64,000 bases of DNA from Chthonomonadaceae bacterium (GCA_015709495.1 CP054189.1:1922001-1986000), one strand, 5' to 3'. Shown: positions 39,397 to 50,454, numbered from the stretch's first letter. Program-made: numbers and translations. Notes: generated by a model not told the origin, from the letters alone.

Positions 39397-40284
39397 CTAC
39401 CGAACCGCCGCAGCGCCGCGAAGCGCCTCTTGCACCAATCCAGGCACTTCCGATGTGCGGTCCGCAACGGGGACTCCGGCTGATTGAAGCGCAGCCACTT
39501 TCGACTCTGGCGTTCCGCGGCCTTGCGATATGATCGCTCCGGCATGGCCCATTCGCTTTCCGGGCGGCGCCGTTCGGCCGCTGATGAACGCCACAACTGG
39601 CTTCGACATGGTCCTGATGAACTCGGCGGCAGCTTCCTCGTCCGAGCCGCCGATTTCGCCCACGAGTACGACGGCTTCCGTTTCAGGGTCGTTTTCGAAC
39701 GCCCCAAGGACATCGACGAAGCGAAGTCCGGGGACAGGGTCGCCGCCGATTCCGACGCACGTGGTTTGTCCCAGCCCTGCTCGGGTCAGTTCCCAGACGA
39801 TTTCGTAGGTGAGGGTGCCGCTCCGGCTGACGAGTCCTACCGGCCCCGGCTGAAAGATATTGCCGGGCATGATTCCGATCTTGCACTTGCCCGGAGAGAT
39901 AATGCCGGCGCAGTTGCCGCCAAGCAGGAGCGATCTCGACTCACGCTTCAGTTTCGCGTTGACGCGCACCATGTCGTGGGCGGGCACCCCTTCCGTGATG
40001 AGGGTGATGAAGGGGATCCCGGCGTCCGCGCATTCGATCACGGAATCCGCCGCGAAAGGGGCGGGAACGAAAATCACTGCGGAGTTTGCGTCAGTCGCAG
40101 AAACTGCGTCTCGCACCGTATCGAAGACGGGCAAGCCCAAGTGCTCAGAGCCCGCCTTGCCGGGTGTAACGCCCGCAACGACCTTGGTGCCGTATTCGAG
40201 CATTTGCTGAGTGTGAAAGGAGCCTTCGCGGCCCGTCATTCCGGCCACTACAACCCGTGTGGAATCGTCGACATAGATGGACAT
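39397..40284 (-). CDS. sucD: Succinyl-CoA synthetase alpha subunit
   Basis: 295 residues from the ATG at 40284; the open frame upstream has no family match. CoA-binding [19 protein letters not shown] opens the protein. [18 protein letters not shown] and the phosphohistidine His247 in [17 protein letters not shown] are the late signatures. It interconverts succinyl-CoA and succinate with nucleotide phosphorylation. The beta subunit sucC, nearly always next to sucD, is not in the window on either side. Confidence 0.95.
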
Positions 40285-40437: not shown

Positions 40438-40443
40438 TATAAT
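40438..40443 (+). promoter_or_regulatory. -10 element of the riboswitch transcript
   Basis: A perfect TATAAT lies about seven bases before the predicted 5' end of the c-di-AMP riboswitch. The -35 region (around 40415-40421) is poor, so the promoter may need an activator or may be weak. Confidence 0.6.
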
Positions 40444-40449
40444 GGTAAG

Positions 40450-40585
40450 GCTGCAAAGCTAATCGTCGAGTCCGTCCAGCAGGGCGGAGCGGGGGACCCG
40501 GTCCATGGGGGTGAAAGGACGAGCTTAATTCGTCCAAGGGTAGCTCTTGGCCCGAACCCGACAGCTAACCCCGTAGACGCAGCGA
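40450..40585 (+). promoter_or_regulatory. Cyclic di-AMP riboswitch (ydaO-yuaA type)
   Basis: The highly conserved strings of this class appear in order: AAGCTAAT, GAGTCC, GGAGCGGGGGACCC, GGGGGTGAA, AGGGTAGCTCTTGGCCCG, then ACCCGACAGCTAACCCCG and AGACGC. A short P1 stem can form between CGTC (40464-40467) and GACG (40576-40579), and a hairpin forms from GGACGAG with TTCGTCC (around 40517-40535). The riboswitch is known to bind c-di-AMP and usually turns genes off by termination. The only co-directional genes downstream are the small membrane protein at 40947 and then rpoB-rpoC. Bases 40586-40768 fold into further hairpins and hold no convincing gene. Confidence 0.93.
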
Positions 40586-40768
40586 GAGTCGCGTAGATTC
40601 CGCAGGAGCGTCGACGGCGTGCGAATGCGCGCGCGTCGATGTAGGGGACGGAGCGGGGCTCGCATTTGTGGCCACAGGGAAGAGCGCGCCAAGGCGGTTG
40701 GATCGGGCAACGATGGTGTTGCAGATCGGGCCGGTCAGGCAAGCTCGACCCAGCACCTCCTGTAACAG

Positions 40769-40795
40769 GGGTCCCTCGTTTCTCCCGGGGGACCC
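40769..40795 (+). terminator. Terminator downstream of the c-di-AMP riboswitch
   Basis: A perfect 7-bp stem, GGGTCCC (40769-40775) with GGGACCC (40789-40795), precedes TTCTCTGCTT. It lies 184 bases past the aptamer, farther than in most riboswitch expression platforms, so whether the aptamer controls this hairpin is an inference. Confidence 0.55.
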
Positions 40796-40946
40796 TTCTC
40801 TGCTTCCTAAGCTTGGGAGGCTCCTCATCGGGTCTTTCGTCCAGAATCGAAGAGCGTTTGAATCCTGCGGCGCGACTTATCGTATCCTTATCGTTGCTGG
40901 AGGGCATTAGGACTTTTGGCGCCGACGCCCCCCTCAGGAATCAACC

Positions 40947-41252
40947 ATGGCCAACCTACACCTTGCCGCGTTCGGACCGGAGACACTCGCGCTTTTGATC
41001 CCGATCACCGCCCTGCTCATTCCGATCGTGGCGATCCTCGTTCGGCATCAGCAAAAGATGGCGGAGATCATTCATTCAAGCCCCAAGTTCGACCCCGGTC
41101 TGAACGCGCAAATCGACTCGCTCCGAAGAGAAATCCTCGAACTCAGGCAACTTGTGCATCAGCAGACCATCGACATGGACTCGCTCAAATCGTTAACCGG
41201 CGGGCGAAATGACGTTGTCCGGAGCGAAGAGACACGCGCGCCCAATGGGTAG
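40947..41252 (+). CDS. Small single-pass membrane protein with coiled coil
   Basis: 101 residues. A hydrophobic helix at about 13-33 (ETLALLIPITALLIPIVAIL) is followed by RHQQKMAEIIHSS and a charged helix (about 50-83) with heptad-like leucines, likely a coiled coil on the cytoplasmic side. The layout is like PspB and like small proteins of unknown function in Firmicutes and related phyla, but I cannot name a family. It is the first gene after the c-di-AMP riboswitch and 116 bases before rpoB. A weak ribosome site, CAGGAA, precedes the ATG. Confidence 0.75.
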   Translation: MANLHLAAFGPETLALLIPITALLIPIVAILVRHQQKMAEIIHSSPKFDPGLNAQIDSLRREILELRQLVHQQTIDMDSLKSLTGGRNDVVRSEETRAPNG

Positions 41253-41306
41253 GCGAGCGGGGGAGGGCGGAAGGGGCGAAATCGTCCCAAAATCCTTCGG
41301 TTTAGG

Positions 41307-41337
41307 TTGACAAAGGGAGGCAGTCAAAGGGTAGTAT
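41307..41337 (+). promoter_or_regulatory. Candidate promoter of rpoB
   Basis: A perfect -35 TTGACA (41307-41312) and TAGTAT (41332-41337, four of six bases) are separated by 19 bases, a little long. The rpoB ATG is 30 bases further, after the ribosome site GGAGG at 41358-41362. Confidence 0.5.
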
Positions 41338-41367
41338 CTCCGTTCGCGCAAACTTCCGGAGGCGTGG

Positions 41368-44300
41368 ATGACGATTATTCAGCCCACCTCGAAGCGAATC
41401 GGCAGATTCCTCGAGGTCCCCAATCTGATCGAACTTCAACTCAACAGTTACAGATGGTTTCTCGAAGAAGGTCTACCCGAGCTTTTCCAGACGTTCTCAC
41501 CGATTTGGGATTTCACTCAATCCAACTTCATCGAACTCGTTAGCTTCTCGCTCGGCGAGCCGAAATACTCGGTTGACGAGTGCCGCGACCGCGATATGAC
41601 GTTCGAGGCGCCGATCAAGGCGATCGTTCGCTTTGGCGGCCGCGAGCGGGAAATGATCGAGTCCGAGGTCTACCTGGGCGACCTGCCCCTGATGACCGAC
41701 CGCGGAACGTTCATCATCAACGGCCGCGAGCGAGTCATTGTATCTCAGCTTTCCCGTTCGCCCGGACTCTACTTCGAAGAAGGCGTTGACACGGCCATGC
41801 AGATGGTCATCAGCGCTCGCGTGATTCCCAACGAGGGCCCATGGCTCGAAATCGAGTCGGACTCCAACCATATCGTCCGGACTCAAATCAGCCAAACGAA
41901 GAAGCTGCCGCTGACGCAGTTGATCAAAGCCTTAGGGGCGTTCGATAAGGGAACTTCAACGGTTCACCTGCCCCTAAAGGAGGCCATTCACCGGAAACTT
42001 GTCGAGCCGCTTGCCGACCCGGAAACCGGTGAGGTCCTTATTAGCGCGGACGAGTGGATCACCCAGGAGGCCGTAGACGCGCTGCCTGCGGCGATTCAGG
42101 AGCAGTCTGTCAATGTCCACACGCCCGTCGATACCACTGACGACCTGATCCGAGTGTTTGGAAGGTACGAGACGCTCGCGTCTCCGACGGCTGACGACCT
42201 TACGGGAAGGCGGGTCTCGGAGGACGTGCTCGATGCCGACGGCAAGGTCGTCATCAAAGCGATGCAGCGAATTGAGCCTGAAACGGCCAAGAAGATTGAG
42301 TCGCTGGGACTGGAATCGTTGCGCACGTACACCCTGCCGAGCGTCGTCGAGGCCACGCTCAAAGAGGACCCGACTTCGAACTGGCGCGAGGCCATCCTCG
42401 ACATCTACAAGCGGCTCCGACCCGGTGAAGCTGCCAACGAAGACGCAGCGAAGCAACTCATCTACGGGCTGTTCTTCGACGTGAAGCGCTATGACCTGGG
42501 CAAAGTGGGGCGAAGATTCCTCAACAACAGGCTCGGGTTCGACGTGCCGATCGACCGACGCTGCCTCACGGCCGTCGACTTGGTCGGGATCATGTTCAAG
42601 CTCCAGGACTACATCGACCGCAAGGCCGAAAGAGACGACATCGACGACCTCAAGAACAAGAGGGTCCGTTCGGTGGGCGAGTTGTTGCAGAGCCAGCTTC
42701 GGCTGGGGTTTGTGAGGATGGAAAAGGTCGCTCGCGAGCGCATGACCAGCACCGACCAAGAGAACCTGCTGCCCGGCATTATCCTCTCGGTCAAACCTGT
42801 GAGCGCGGCGATCAAGAGCTTCTTTAGCTCCAACCAGCTCAGCACGTTCATGGATCAAACGAATCCGTTGAGCGAGTTGACCAACAAGCGGCGCCTTTCG
42901 AGTCTGGGGCCGGGGGGTCTGCAACGGACGAGCGCAAAGCTTGAAGTTCGCGACGTCCACCGTTCGCACTACGGCCGGATCTGCCCCATCGAGACCCCCG
43001 AAGGTCCGAATATCGGGCTGATCTCCCAGCTCACCACGCACGCAAGGGTCGATGAGTACGGGTTCATCATGACTCCGTACCGGCGCGTCGTCGATGGCCG
43101 CGTCACCGACGAGATCGTGTACCTGACCGCTCAGGAGGACTTCTCGAAGCTCATTGCGCCCGCAGACACTCTCACCGATGGTGAGGATCGGATCGTCGCA
43201 GATCGGCTGCAGGTGCGCTGCGCGGGAACGGAGTTCGGAGGCGCGAGCTATCCGCTCGTCCCGAGGGACCGGGTGACCCTGATGGACGTCTCACCGGTTC
43301 AAATCGTGTCCGTCGCGACGGCCCTGATTCCTTTCCTCGAAAACGACGACGCGAACCGGGCGCTTATGGGCGCGAACATGCAGCGCCAAGCTGTGCCGTG
43401 CCTAAGATCTGAGCGTCCTGTCGTTTGTACGGGCTACGAGCGAACGGCAGCCGTCGACTCTGGCGCGGCAGTCGTCGCCAGGCGAGGCGGCGTCGTGGTA
43501 TTGGCGACCGCGACCGAAGTGCGCGTCCAGACCGATAGCGGCGAGATCGACACTTACAGGCTGCAGCACATGCTGCAAAGCAACAAATCGACCTGCTTTA
43601 CGCAGCGACCCATCATCGAACTGGGCCAGCGGGTGCTGGAAGGCGATCCCCTCGCGGACGGTCCTTGCGTCGATCATGGCGAACTCGCTTTGGGCAAGAA
43701 CGTGCTGGTCTCGTTCATGCCTTGGGGCGGATACAACTACGAAGACGCGATCATCATCAGCGAGCGGCTGGTCAAGGATGACGTGTTCAGTTCGATCCAT
43801 ATCGAGCGGCACGAGACGGAAGCCGTCGACACCAAGTTGGGTCCTGAAGAGATCACGCGCGATATTCCGAACGTCGGAGAGGACGCCCTTAAGGACCTCG
43901 ATGAGAACGGCATCGTCCGCATCGGCGCGGAAGTCAGGCCCGAAGACATCCTGGTCGGAAAGGTCGCGCCTAAGGGGCAGGTCGAAATGACCGCCGAAGA
44001 GCGGCTGATCATCGCGATCTTCGGTAAGAAGGCCGAAGAGACGAGGGACGTTTCATTGCGGCTGCCGCACGGTGAGAAAGGCACGGTCGTCGACGTCAAG
44101 GTTTTCAGCAGGTTCAAGTACAAGTGTACGGCTTGCGGGCATGAATACAACGAGTCGAAAAAGCGGGAACGTCTTTTCTGCGACCGCTGCGAAGAAGCCA
44201 TCAATTCGCTGGGCGCGGACGAACTCCCCGCCGGAACGAATATGTCGGTCCAGGTCTACATCGCCCAGAAGCGGAAGCTGATGGTCGGCGACAAGATGGC

Positions 44301-45381
44301 CGGACGGCACGGGAACAAGGGCGTCATCTCGCGGGTCGTGCCCGTCGAAGACATGCCGTGTCTAATGGATGGCACGCCGGTGGACATCATCTTGAACCCG
44401 CTCGGCGTTCCGAGCCGAATGAACATCGGCCAGATTCTGGAGACCCACCTCGGTTACGCGGGCCGAAAGCTCGGAGTGCGGTACCGCTGCCCGGCCTTCG
44501 AAGGCGCGACCGAAGAAGAAGTCTTGGAAGAGATCGAGCGTTTGGCCGAAGCGATGCGGTGCGAGGCCCTATCGAAGTACGTCAACCGAGAACTGATGCT
44601 GGCCGTGGAGTTTGAAAAGGACGACTCGGTCGAAACGATGAAGGAGCGTGTCAACGGCGCCTTGAGGAAGTTGGATAGGCCTCGCCTCGAGAGAGCGAGC
44701 CGCATTCTGGGAGCAACCCCGGTTGCCGATGAGGCTGAACTGAGCGCGATCGACCCCGACGACTGGGAGCCGGACGAGCTGCAGAGCGCCGGTGAGCCGT
44801 ATTCCGCTCCGGCCTCCGTGTACGACGACATCACCGAGCGCGTGCTCGTCAATGCCTTCCGGCGGGGAGGCATCGACCCCGAATCCTGCAAGTCGTTGGT
44901 TCGGGACGGGCTGACCGGAGACGTGCTGCCGAACCCGCTGACCGTAGGGACGATCTACATGCTCAAGCTCGAGCACCTTGCGGAAGAGAAGATTCACGCC
45001 CGATCGATCGGGCCGTACTCGCTCGTCACCCAGCAGCCGTTGGGCGGTAAGGCGCAGTTCGGCGGTCAGAGATTTGGCGAGATGGAAGTGTGGGCGCTAG
45101 AAGCTTACGGTGCGGCCTACACGCTCCAAGAGTTGCTCACGATCAAGTCGGACGATGTCGCCGGACGCGTCAAGGCCTACGAGGCGATTGTCAAGGGCGA
45201 AGCCATCGCCGAACCCGGAATTCCGGAATCCTTCAAGATTCTGGTGAACGAGTTGCGCTCGCTGTGCCTCAAGGTCACGGTCGAAGACGCCGCGAACCGT
45301 GAGCTGGCCCTTCGCGACTTGGACGAACTCGGTCCGAGCGACGACGCTAGGCTCGCTCGGTCGGTGGGTTTGTTTAGCTAG
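41368..45381 (+). CDS. rpoB: DNA-directed RNA polymerase beta subunit
   Basis: 1337 residues. Conserved regions include [21 protein letters not shown], the fork/rifampicin region [68 protein letters not shown] and the C-terminal [24 protein letters not shown]. Two features are odd. A CxxC-x14-CxxC ribbon (Cys codons at 44125, 44134, 44179 and 44188) is inserted before the GDKMAGRHG segment. The position matching E. coli His526 is Asn506. A region of about 90 residues before the C-terminal domain is also longer than in T. thermophilus. Confidence 0.98.
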
Positions 45382-45726: not shown

Positions 45727-48700
45727 ATGGCAGACGTAAGTCAATTCAACAAAATCCGAATCGGCATCGCTAGCCCCACCGACATCCGAAGTTGGGCATT
45801 TCGTCACGGCGTACACCACGAGGTCAAAAAACCCGAAACGATCAATTATCGCACGTTCAAGCCGGAGCGTGACGGGCTGTTCTGCGAGAAGATTTTCGGG
45901 CCCGTCAAGGACTACGAATGTTCCTGCGGGCGCTACAAAAAGATCAAATACGCCGGCATCATCTGCGAACGGTGCGGCGTCGAAGTCACCAAGAGCCGCG
46001 TCCGGCGCGAGCGCATGGGGATCATCGAACTCGCCGCTCCCGTGTGCCACATTTGGTACTTGAAGGGAGTTCCCAGCCCCCTGGCGTTGATCCTCGACAT
46101 CTCGCCCCGGCTGCTCGAAAAGGTCATCTACTTCGCCAGCTTCATCATCATCGACATCGAAGCCGAGAAGATCGCCGAGCTGCTTCCGAAGGTGAAGGAG
46201 GCGGCGGAGCAGGAGAAGGCCACGATCATGCGGCACATGAGGGAACTCGAGGAAGACAGCTTCACGAGGTTCTTCGAAGAGCTTGACAGCAACAGCGATG
46301 AGTACGACGAAGGTTCGGTGAGGGAGCGCGCGAAGGCGATCAACGACCGCATTCGGGCCGAATACCGCGATGCCGACGACCGTCTCAAGGACCTCGACCT
46401 TGCGGTGGACATCCTCGGCAAGCTCGAGCGCAACCAACTCATCGACGAAGAGAAGTACCGCGCGGTCAGCAAGATGCTCGACGCCGTGGGCGCCAAGCTC
46501 GATTTGGAATTGCGCAACCTTGTCCGGGCCATCATCGGGGCCGAGGCGATCAAAGAGCTGTTGACCCGCGTCGACCTCGAAAAGCTCGCCCGTGAACTCC
46601 GGCAAGAGATCGTGTCGACGACCTCGCAGCGCCGAGCCCGCGCCATCAAGCGGCTCGAAATCGCGGAAGCGCTCATTTCCAGCAAGAGCCGCCCTGAGTG
46701 GATGATCCTCGATGTCATCCCTGTCATCAGCCCCGAACTGCGCCCGATGGTCCAACTCGACGGCGGACGTTTCGCAACGTCGGACCTGAACGACCTGTAT
46801 CGGCGAATCATCAACCGCAACAACCGGCTCAAGAAGATCATGGAGATTCACGCGCCGGAGTCGATCATCAACCACGAGAAGCGGCTGCTTCAAGAGGCGG
46901 TCGATGCGCTGGTCGATAACGGCCGTCGGTCGCGTCCCGTGGTGGGCTCCAACTCCCGCCCGCTCAAGTCGCTGAGCGATATGCTCAAAGGCAAGGAAGG
47001 GCGGTTCCGAAAGAACCTTCTTGGAAAGCGCGTGGACTACTCGGGCCGATCGGTAATCGTGGTTGGACCCCACTTGAAACTCCACCAGTGCGGACTTCCC
47101 AAGGAGATGGCGCTCGAGCTCTTCAAGCCGTTCGTGATGAAGACGCTGGTCGAAAAGAAGATCACCCAAAACATCAAGACGGCCAAGCGCATGATCGATC
47201 GGATGCACCCGGCCGTGTGGGATGGGTTGGAGGAGGTCATCAAGGAGCATCCGGTTCTTCTGAACCGCGCGCCGACACTGCACCGATTGGGAATCCAAGC
47301 GTTCGAGCCGATCCTAGTCGATGGCAAGGCGATTCAAATCCACCCGCTTGTTTGCCATGCCTACAACGCGGACTTCGACGGCGACCAGATGGCTGTCCAC
47401 GTCCCGCTTTCATTGCAGGCGCAGGCGGAAGCTCGGGTCTTGATGCTCAGCGCTCAGAACCTGTTCTCACCGGCGGATGGCCGCCCGATCATGTCGCCGA
47501 TCCAGGACATCGTCTTGGGGGCGTATGCGCTTACGTTCACGGACAAGGCGTCGCTGCAAAGCCTCGAGGAGGCCCTGGCAAAGCATGAGGCTGACCCTGA
47601 GAACAACCCGGCGCCCAAGGTCTACCGCGACCCTGCCGAAGTTACCTTCCATCTCGAATCGCCCAATGTCGAGAACCCGGTTCAACTCAACCAAGCCGTT
47701 CGCGTTCGAATCCGCCGCCCGGTCTTCCGACCCGACAGCGAGATCGATCACCGGGACCCTGCGACCGGCCAGGAATACCGGTACGAGACCACGAAGGGCG
47801 AAGACGACGAGGAGAAGCGAGAACTCAAGCCGCTCGAAACCGAGTTCGAGACTGTGGTCAGAGTCTCGACGGCCGGAAGGCTCCTGTTCAACGAGGCCTT
47901 GCCTTACCCGCTCAAGCATAGCGACGGGATGCTTCAAATCGAGCTAACCAAGAAGATGCTCGCCGAGTTGATTGTGCTGTGTCAGAGACAATGTGGCCTT
48001 GGTGGGACAATTCGCCTCCTAGACGATCTCAAGGACCTTGGGTTCCGGTGGGCGACGAAGTACGGCCTCTCCATCGCCATCACGGACATGGACCCGCCTG
48101 CGGGAAGGGAGGCCATTCTTCAGGAGGCGGACGACTCTTCGAACACGATCCTCACGCGATACCGCAGGGGGATGCTCAACTTCAACGAGATGCAGCGTAG
48201 GCTGGTCGACCTATGGTCGAAGACCTACGACAAGATCGGCCATGAGATTCAGGCGGGGATGCACCAATTCAACCCGCTTACGATTATCACCGACTCGGGC
48301 GCTCGCGGCTCGGTCAAGCAGCTCGCTCAGCTTGCGGGAATGCGCGGCCTGATGTTCAACCAGTTCAACGAGGTTATTTACGAACTCCCCGTCAAGAGCT
48401 CGTTCCAAAAGGGCCTTTCGATGCTGGAGTACTTCGTGACCACGCACGGCGCCCGCAAGGGTCTCGCCGACACGGCCCTGCGAACCGCCGACGCGGGATA
48501 CCTCACAAGGCGGCTCGTCGATGTCTCGCAAGACGTTATCATTCGGCGGGAAGACTGTGGCACGACCGAAGGAGTGCTTTGCCACCGCATCCTCAACGAT
48601 GAGGACGAGGTCATCGAGAAGGTCGGTGATCGCCTGATCGGCAGAGTCGCCCTGCGCGATTTGGTCGACCCGGAAACGAACCAACAACTCATGACTGCCG

Positions 48701-50454
48701 GCGAAGTCATCACCGTCGATCAGGCGAAGCGGATCAACGAGGTCGAGGTTCAGTTCACCGCTGTAGCTGAGGCGACGGATTCCGACCAGGCAAGGCAGAC
48801 CTTGGGCGATAAGATGATCGGCGCCGGGTTCGAAATCAACGAACACGGCCTGCTGTGCATTCCGATCCGGAGCCCTTTGACCTGCGACCTCGATCAAGGG
48901 ATTTGCAGCCATTGCTACGGAGTGGACCTTTCGACCAACAAGATAGTCGAAGTCGGGGTCGCGGTGGGGATCATCGCTGCCCAATCGATCGGTGAGCCGG
49001 GTACTCAGCTCACGATGAGGACGTTCCACACCGGAGGCGTTGCAGGTTCGGCGACGATTGCACGTACCAGCCAGTACAAGACCGGTAAGTTCATTCGTCA
49101 GTTCATGGCGGACCTTGAGGCCGCGATGGACACCGACATGAAGCAACTCGATCCGACGAAGTTGCTGGAGTCCCAAGAGGAAGCCGTCAAGGACCTCTTT
49201 ACGGACTCGGATCGTTTGACGATCAACGAGGCCGAAACCGGCAAGAGGAAGACCGAGCGGCAAACCAAGGCCGCGATCAAGGCCGCGGAAAAGATGGACA
49301 CCGAATCCCGCAAGATGTGGGAGAAGTCGCGGAAGACCTTCTTCTATGCTTGGACGGGCGAGTCCAGCGGCATCGTCCGCGTCGAAGAGATCTTCGAAGC
49401 GCGAAAGCAACCTCGTGGAAAGGCGATCATCTGCCCGGTCACGGGGGGCGTGCGGTCCATTCGTGATTCGAATTTCGGCCGCTGGGTGATCGTAGATTCG
49501 GTGGTCCCGGTCAAGGAAACCCTCAAGGACGCCTACATTGCCGACGTTCAGGAGTTCCTTGGCGGCAAGAAGACCGAGGCCGCTCTCGAGAAAATCGTCG
49601 GCCAGAAGTTCACGACCGCCACGCTCACCGTACTCAGGAAGCACGAAGTCGAGCACGTTCGCGTGTACTATCCGATCCTCGTTCCGCCGATCGGGAACTT
49701 GCCCGTGAAGGCCGGCTCCAAGGTGATTCAAGGCGACCCGTTGACTTACGGTCCTCGGGACCCTCATGAGATTCTGGAACTCGCCGGCGCGGGCGCGGTC
49801 TACGACTACTTCGTGGAAAACTTGCAGTCGGTCTATAAGGCTCAAGGCGTCGACATCAACGACAAGCACATCGAAGTCATCATTCGGCAGATGCTTCGCA
49901 AGAGGCAGATCAAGGAGCCAGGGGATACCCCGTTCCTGCCGGGCCAGATCGTGGACCGATTCCAACTCCGACGCGAGAACGAGAAGGTCCGTCAAGCCAT
50001 TCAGGCGGGCAAGATGATCAAGTACGTCGATCCGATGACGAGCGAAAACGTCGAGAGGGAGCCGCGCGAGGCCACGGCCAACTGGATTCTGTTGGGCATC
50101 ACCGAGGCGTCGCTCGCAACGGAGTCGTTCCTTTCGGCGGCTTCGTTCCAGAAGACCACCCGCGTCCTGACAGAGGCCGCGGTTCGAGGCAAGAAGGACA
50201 CCCTTGTCGGCCTGAAGGAAAACGTCATCATCGGGCGGCTGATTCCGGCCGGGACGGGCGTTTCCCAGTACCGGTCGCTTGCGGTCGACGTCGAGCGAGG
50301 ACCTGCATGGGCCCACCAGTCCCTCACCGCACTGGTGGAAGCGGAAGCTCCCGAGGAACTCCAACCCGACGCGGGGCTTGCGTTCCCGAGCCTTGTCGAA
50401 ATGGCTGCCGAAGAGGCGACTTCAGTTCCGGAAGAGCCGGAAGACGAGTCGTAA
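45727..50454 (+). CDS. rpoC: DNA-directed RNA polymerase beta' subunit
   Basis: 1575 residues against about 1400 in E. coli. The first zinc site is [20 protein letters not shown]; the catalytic loop is [17 protein letters not shown]; the second zinc site is in [14 protein letters not shown]; the trigger loop begins [22 protein letters not shown]. Right after this the chain carries about 105 extra, mostly charged residues (bases 49048-49374) before [13 protein letters not shown], where T. thermophilus has about ten. An additional charged coiled-coil-like segment lies in the N-terminal third (about residues 155-280). The start ATG has no strong ribosome site. Confidence 0.98.

Follow-up and report, generated by a model that had tools for sequence, protein, structure and literature searches.

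The region analyzed here (the window) is a 64,000-nucleotide stretch of the complete 2.9-Mb chromosome of a member of the Armatimonadota (G000:C1:1922001-1986000), in which a c-di-AMP riboswitch precedes a small membrane protein gene and rpoB-rpoC. A covariance search of the whole window with RF00379 gave a match at positions 40454 to 40593 (plus strand) with 80.7 bits versus a gathering score of 38 (E=3.6e-17), covering the model end to end (positions 1 to 134 of 134). The cmscan alignment had standard pairs at 25 of its 26 pairs, and all the core motifs were intact. This result bears out a preliminary description of the same DNA, which had recognized near-consensus ydaO motifs from the sequence alone: the element is a genuine c-di-AMP (ydaO/yuaA) riboswitch, and binding of the ligand is predicted from its sequence. 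It is the only RF00379 copy in the chromosome. Since the genome also carries a diadenylate cyclase gene (DAC domain, 136.5 bits, in an open frame of 295 residues), c-di-AMP is probably made by the host. No second known RNA family was found in the leader at an E value of ≤1.

The perfect TATAAT reported just before the riboswitch is present at 40438 to 40443 on the plus strand and, read directly from the sequence, is likely the −10 box of the riboswitch transcript. No good −35 box is visible before it, and a consensus scan called no sigma-70 promoter there; TANNNT-like boxes precede the aptamer at the same place in relatives. On the other side lies sucD (39397 to 40284, minus strand; Pfam CoA_binding and Ligase_CoA), a divergent neighbor that had been left out of the preliminary description and that keeps this orientation next to the riboswitch in 12 or more relatives. 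Downstream, the features described previously were all recovered on the same strand: a terminator-like hairpin (40767 to 40797), a 101-residue open reading frame encoding a small membrane protein as the first gene 3′ of the riboswitch (40947 to 41252), rpoB (41368 to 45381; Pfam RNA_pol_Rpb2 domains), and rpoC (45727 to 50454; Pfam RNA_pol_Rpb1 domains). With a −10 box at one end and a terminator at the other, the leader contains a candidate discrete transcript.

The hairpin has 12 pairs (−21.1 kcal/mol) and resembles an intrinsic terminator with a poor T-run (TTCTCTGCTTCC), and a simple terminator scan does not call it; most relatives have a hairpin at the same place. Its 5′ arm is complementary to the aptamer core strand GGAGCGGGGGACCC (40486 to 40499, plus strand), a predicted antiterminator whose duplex (−28.6 kcal/mol) was matched in strength by none of 300 shuffles and falls in the top 1% of leader windows. 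Along similar lines, the unliganded predicted fold of 40450 to 40815 has this strand paired with the terminator arm, at a free minimum of −173.9 kcal/mol versus −163.6 kcal/mol for aptamer plus terminator, so that forcing both costs ca. 10 kcal/mol. Tight binding of the ligand, for which picomolar affinity has been reported in this riboswitch class (PMC7266159), could close a gap of this size. When the antiterminator test was applied to 27 loci, 10 had a P value of ≤0.05 (median, 0.08), a modest enrichment within which the complementarity of the window was the strongest. Because the shift is so modest, the exact pairing is not a conserved feature of the family, and we rejected conservation of the antiterminator across relatives. 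The full-length aptamer match and the predicted terminator-type expression platform are like those of Bacillus subtilis ydaO, and the published ydaO riboswitches are OFF switches that act by termination (PMC5575661). We infer that switching here would follow the same direction: without c-di-AMP, the strand at 40486 to 40499 would pair with the terminator arm and transcription would read through, and with c-di-AMP, the aptamer would hold that strand, the hairpin would form, and transcription would stop.

The question is then which gene such read-through would reach. The preliminary description had proposed that read-through into rpoB-rpoC could let c-di-AMP adjust the level of RNA polymerase, on the grounds that these genes lie on the same strand; the distance from the aptamer to rpoB is 775 nt, and the riboswitch does share one cluster with rpoB in several relatives too. 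Against this stands the promoter of rpoB itself, a candidate for which had been suggested at 41307: TTGACA (41307 to 41312) pairs with TAGTAT (41332 to 41337) across a 19-nt spacer (promoter at 41307 to 41337, plus strand), with the −10 box ca. 30 nt from the start codon, which matches its position in relatives. Among 42 rpoB upstream regions, TATAAT-like boxes peak 28 to 32 nt before the start codon (10 versus 0 to 4 at other distances), and 32 regions have a Shine-Dalgarno-like site. In three genomes (G018, G020, and G060) the riboswitch is not next to rpoB, yet the promoter layout is the same. Many relatives separate the two altogether; the riboswitch is kept, with rpoB elsewhere, in G018, G026, G027, G032, G046, and G060. 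Within the window, the terminator, a gene, and a further promoter intervene. With rpoB served by its own promoter and Shine-Dalgarno site at conserved positions and the adjacency explained by the descent of the locus (see below), the proposal becomes very improbable, and the riboswitch probably does not control RNA polymerase here. Read-through may add something to rpoB, though nothing requires it.

The RF00379 riboswitch was sought in 100 relatives, some of them draft genomes, and was found in 63 (64 of 101 with the window genome); the neighborhoods of ca. 80 riboswitches were compared, with genes of the relatives called by a simple hexamer model. In 18 relatives, the riboswitch is followed, at a distance of 214 to 869 nt, by hisB or a HisB-like gene. 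Fifteen of these 18 have hisH and hisA behind hisB, and in most the small membrane protein comes next, in at least one copy, so that the usual order is divergent sucD, riboswitch, hisB-hisH-hisA, and small membrane protein(s), often then rpoB-rpoC. In 10 of the 18, rpoB closes this cluster or lies near its end, and rpoB comes next after the riboswitch-his cluster in G007, G009, G013, G028, G037, G043, G052, and G054; a count of nine includes, by extension, contigs of the G051/G036 type, which end too early to tell whether it follows. The riboswitch-hisB block occurs among other neighbors in G003, G026, G027, G032, G046, and G060, which means that the two are not linked merely through a single fixed gene order, and the adjacency of rpoB is less stable than the riboswitch-hisB link. 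The group also has divergent HisB-like proteins (94.8 to 137.4 bits to PF00475) that have lost the conserved FDH and/or HHxxED residues (L104, L107, L219, L220, L221, L223, L224, L225, and L226, in G003, G021, G017, G008, G042, G059, G025, G006, and G038, respectively); their genes often adjoin rpoB and the small membrane protein gene, hisG is absent from some of the host genomes, and the proteins have the look of pseudoenzymes retained for a different role.

The targets usual for c-di-AMP riboswitches are K+ or osmolyte transport genes and cell wall hydrolases, a typical rather than defining association. Unlike these contexts, the locus described here has the small membrane protein and rpoBC, with hisBHA in relatives, and neither K+/osmolyte transport nor cell wall hydrolase genes. 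We found no link between c-di-AMP riboswitches and his genes in the open-access papers searched.

In the window genome (99.6% complete), a genome-wide search found none of hisB, hisG, hisA, and hisF; the hisA/hisF search gave one stray match of 24.6 bits. Separately, HisD has a partial match only (60.6 bits, positions 43 to 187, in a 407-residue open frame at G000:C1:2736438-2736908, L218). No hisB remnant was detected by tblastn between the riboswitch and the small gene. The same-genus relative G001 keeps hisBHA and hisG, and in the rpoB tree, G001 is the nearest neighbor of the window genome and G018 joins this pair next (supports of 97/88 and 100/96), the three being nested among riboswitch-his lineages; the loss of the his genes in the window lineage is therefore derived. 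On this comparison of gene orders, the riboswitch sits upstream of rpoB mainly because the intervening genes of an ancestral riboswitch-hisBHA-small protein-rpoB locus were lost, which left it adjoining the small gene and rpoB. Histidine control as a present function in this genome was rejected, as hisG, hisB, hisA, and hisF are all absent.

Such a history raises the prospect that the riboswitch served the lost genes and that the leader, now functionless, is decaying, as the missing his genes and the weak T-run would suggest. However, the aptamer scores as is usual among relatives and has all its core motifs intact, no other locus tested had a stronger antiterminator complementarity, and the unique element before the terminator (see below) has been kept. 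The rpoB proteins of the window genome and its same-genus relative share 77% identity over 400 residues, which implies time enough to decay unless the loss was very recent. We consider a relic unlikely. Among the 18 hisB loci of relatives, 11 have, 3′ of the terminator, a TATAAT-like box 6 to 11 nt ahead of the hisB ATG, and only 1 has an SD-like site; given this leaderless-type promoter box of its own and the rarity of SD sites, read-through would not be needed for hisB and would be translated poorly.

The gene that now follows the riboswitch (40947 to 41252, plus strand) encodes a 101-amino-acid protein with a single membrane pass and a coiled coil, belonging to a lineage-specific family present in 74 of 101 relatives. 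Proteins related to it are encoded by Armatimonadota, mainly Fimbriimonas and Fimbriimonadaceae, with two short Erythrobacter matches as the exceptions. It has no family match in Pfam or NCBIfam. PDB matches (the best to a rat RAP chain, then to NavAb channels) fall in the membrane helix/coiled-coil region and were discarded, as they look like composition. Because the gene has an AGGA Shine-Dalgarno-like site and no leaderless-type −10 box, a read-through transcript could serve for its translation. Between the terminator and the gene, at ca. 40882, lies TATCCT, a possible promoter box, so that the gene may be independent of the riboswitch, and in sister genomes it is not behind the riboswitch. 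c-di-AMP may tune the small membrane protein.

What follows the riboswitch varies between the window genome and the two nearest to it: the small membrane protein gene in the former, sucD in G001, and in G018 a reverse-strand MarR gene that separates the module from hisBHA. All three keep the full aptamer (79 to 81 bits), the CACCTCCTGT element, and the terminator. The G001 riboswitch (L138, G001:C18:1-6300) is orthologous-looking and points toward sucD rather than away from it; its position at a contig edge makes an assembly error possible. This persistence beside different genes suggests that the riboswitch works as a self-contained unit. Elsewhere, modules precede dnaK, a sigma factor gene, or an M24 peptidase gene.

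The element in question, AGCACCTCCTGT (40752 to 40763, plus strand), sits ca. 4 nt before the terminator and is similar to the 16S anti-Shine-Dalgarno sequence; the window genome has a single copy of it, at the riboswitch. Exact matches of its family are nearly all at riboswitches (9 at riboswitches in the 41 genomes searched). A second design is common to many of these riboswitches, with the aptamer followed by a structured linker of 60 to 190 nt, a CACCTCCT element, and the terminator hairpin, and CACCTCCT recurs before terminators at riboswitches whose next genes are unrelated (dnaK, sigma factor, M24 peptidase, and hisB). The long structured linker with its conserved element distinguishes these modules from known RF00379 members. 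The linker also carries TTTGTGGCC (40665 to 40673, plus strand), a motif with similar counterparts in relatives: TTTGYGGYC-like motifs occur in 11 of 29 linkers versus 0.8 expected from shuffles. Otherwise, the linker sequence is poorly conserved, and RNAalifold on a MAFFT alignment gave nothing convincing as a shared structure.

As judged by its sequence, CACCTCCT could pair with many Shine-Dalgarno sequences. One can thus conceive of a standalone RNA of ca. 345 nt (riboswitch, linker, element, and terminator) acting in trans, for example by Shine-Dalgarno pairing, with c-di-AMP setting its shape or amount and the downstream gene being incidental. Rli55 in Listeria is a riboswitch-controlled noncoding RNA and, like it, the window riboswitch has its own terminator and may serve no directly adjacent gene; unlike Rli55, it has no known target or sequestered protein, and trans action is a hypothesis. 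The clade of G000, G001, and G018, in which the module is retained in front of different genes, the recurrence of CACCTCCT at unrelated loci, and the position of hisB's own promoter box 3′ of the terminator are all consistent with such an RNA. So are the modules without a co-directional gene, among them those followed by a convergent gene in G023, G010, and G059 (and in G006, with a weak gene call). However, the next gene is co-directional in 22 of 29 modules, conservation of the linker is poor, and the element is predicted to be only a little more accessible than average overall and no more than average in the window, where predicted folds do not support CACCTCCT as a clearly exposed element. 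We regard the standalone RNA as a tentative alternative, and its more specific version, a c-di-AMP-sensing RNA of the Fimbriimonadaceae that acts in trans on translation through an anti-Shine-Dalgarno-like CACCUCCU element and is kept while its neighbors change, as somewhat more doubtful still.

Other c-di-AMP riboswitches of the group were found in contexts of their own. Several (L131, L114, L211, L196, L185, L102, L186, and L213, in G012, G039, G024, G011, G058, G008, G018, and G048, respectively) precede, directly or after another small open reading frame, a 113-residue-type protein related to Thoeris anti-defense 1 (Tad1; PDB 8kbb, E=6e-8). Tad1 is a cyclic-nucleotide sponge family, and a cyclic-nucleotide riboswitch before a possible cyclic-nucleotide sponge merits its own study. 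Two families of ca. 95 to 117 residues with no strong Pfam match (L109, L200, L115, L119, L130, L189, L202, L187, and L128 for one; L214, L123, L132, L208, and L207 for the other) start 20 to 110 nt after c-di-AMP aptamers, some with a clear Shine-Dalgarno site, and are probable new targets of these riboswitches. An MFS transporter gene and then a small membrane protein gene follow the riboswitch at L113, L203, L206, and L130 (G011, G017, G016, and G018, respectively).

Taken together, these data lead us to favor, with a probability of roughly one-half, an OFF switch that works by termination within a self-contained leader, inherited from a his-containing locus and made up of a promoter, the aptamer, a structured linker, the CACCTCCTGT element, and the terminator. 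Read-through would likely reach one gene only, that of the small membrane protein, the sole target within easy reach, and most transcription of rpoB-rpoC would start at the conserved promoter that these genes have themselves. At present, the riboswitch most likely acts by termination to control the small membrane protein.

In the open-access papers searched, we found no precedent for c-di-AMP riboswitches before histidine genes, a context that comes from a little-studied phylum. The documented history of the locus replaces a striking but misleading story connecting a second messenger to RNA polymerase, and it cautions, more generally, against deriving riboswitch targets from the gene order of one genome instead of from many relatives. 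A module that outlives its neighbors also raises the testable question of whether a c-di-AMP riboswitch may act as an RNA alone.
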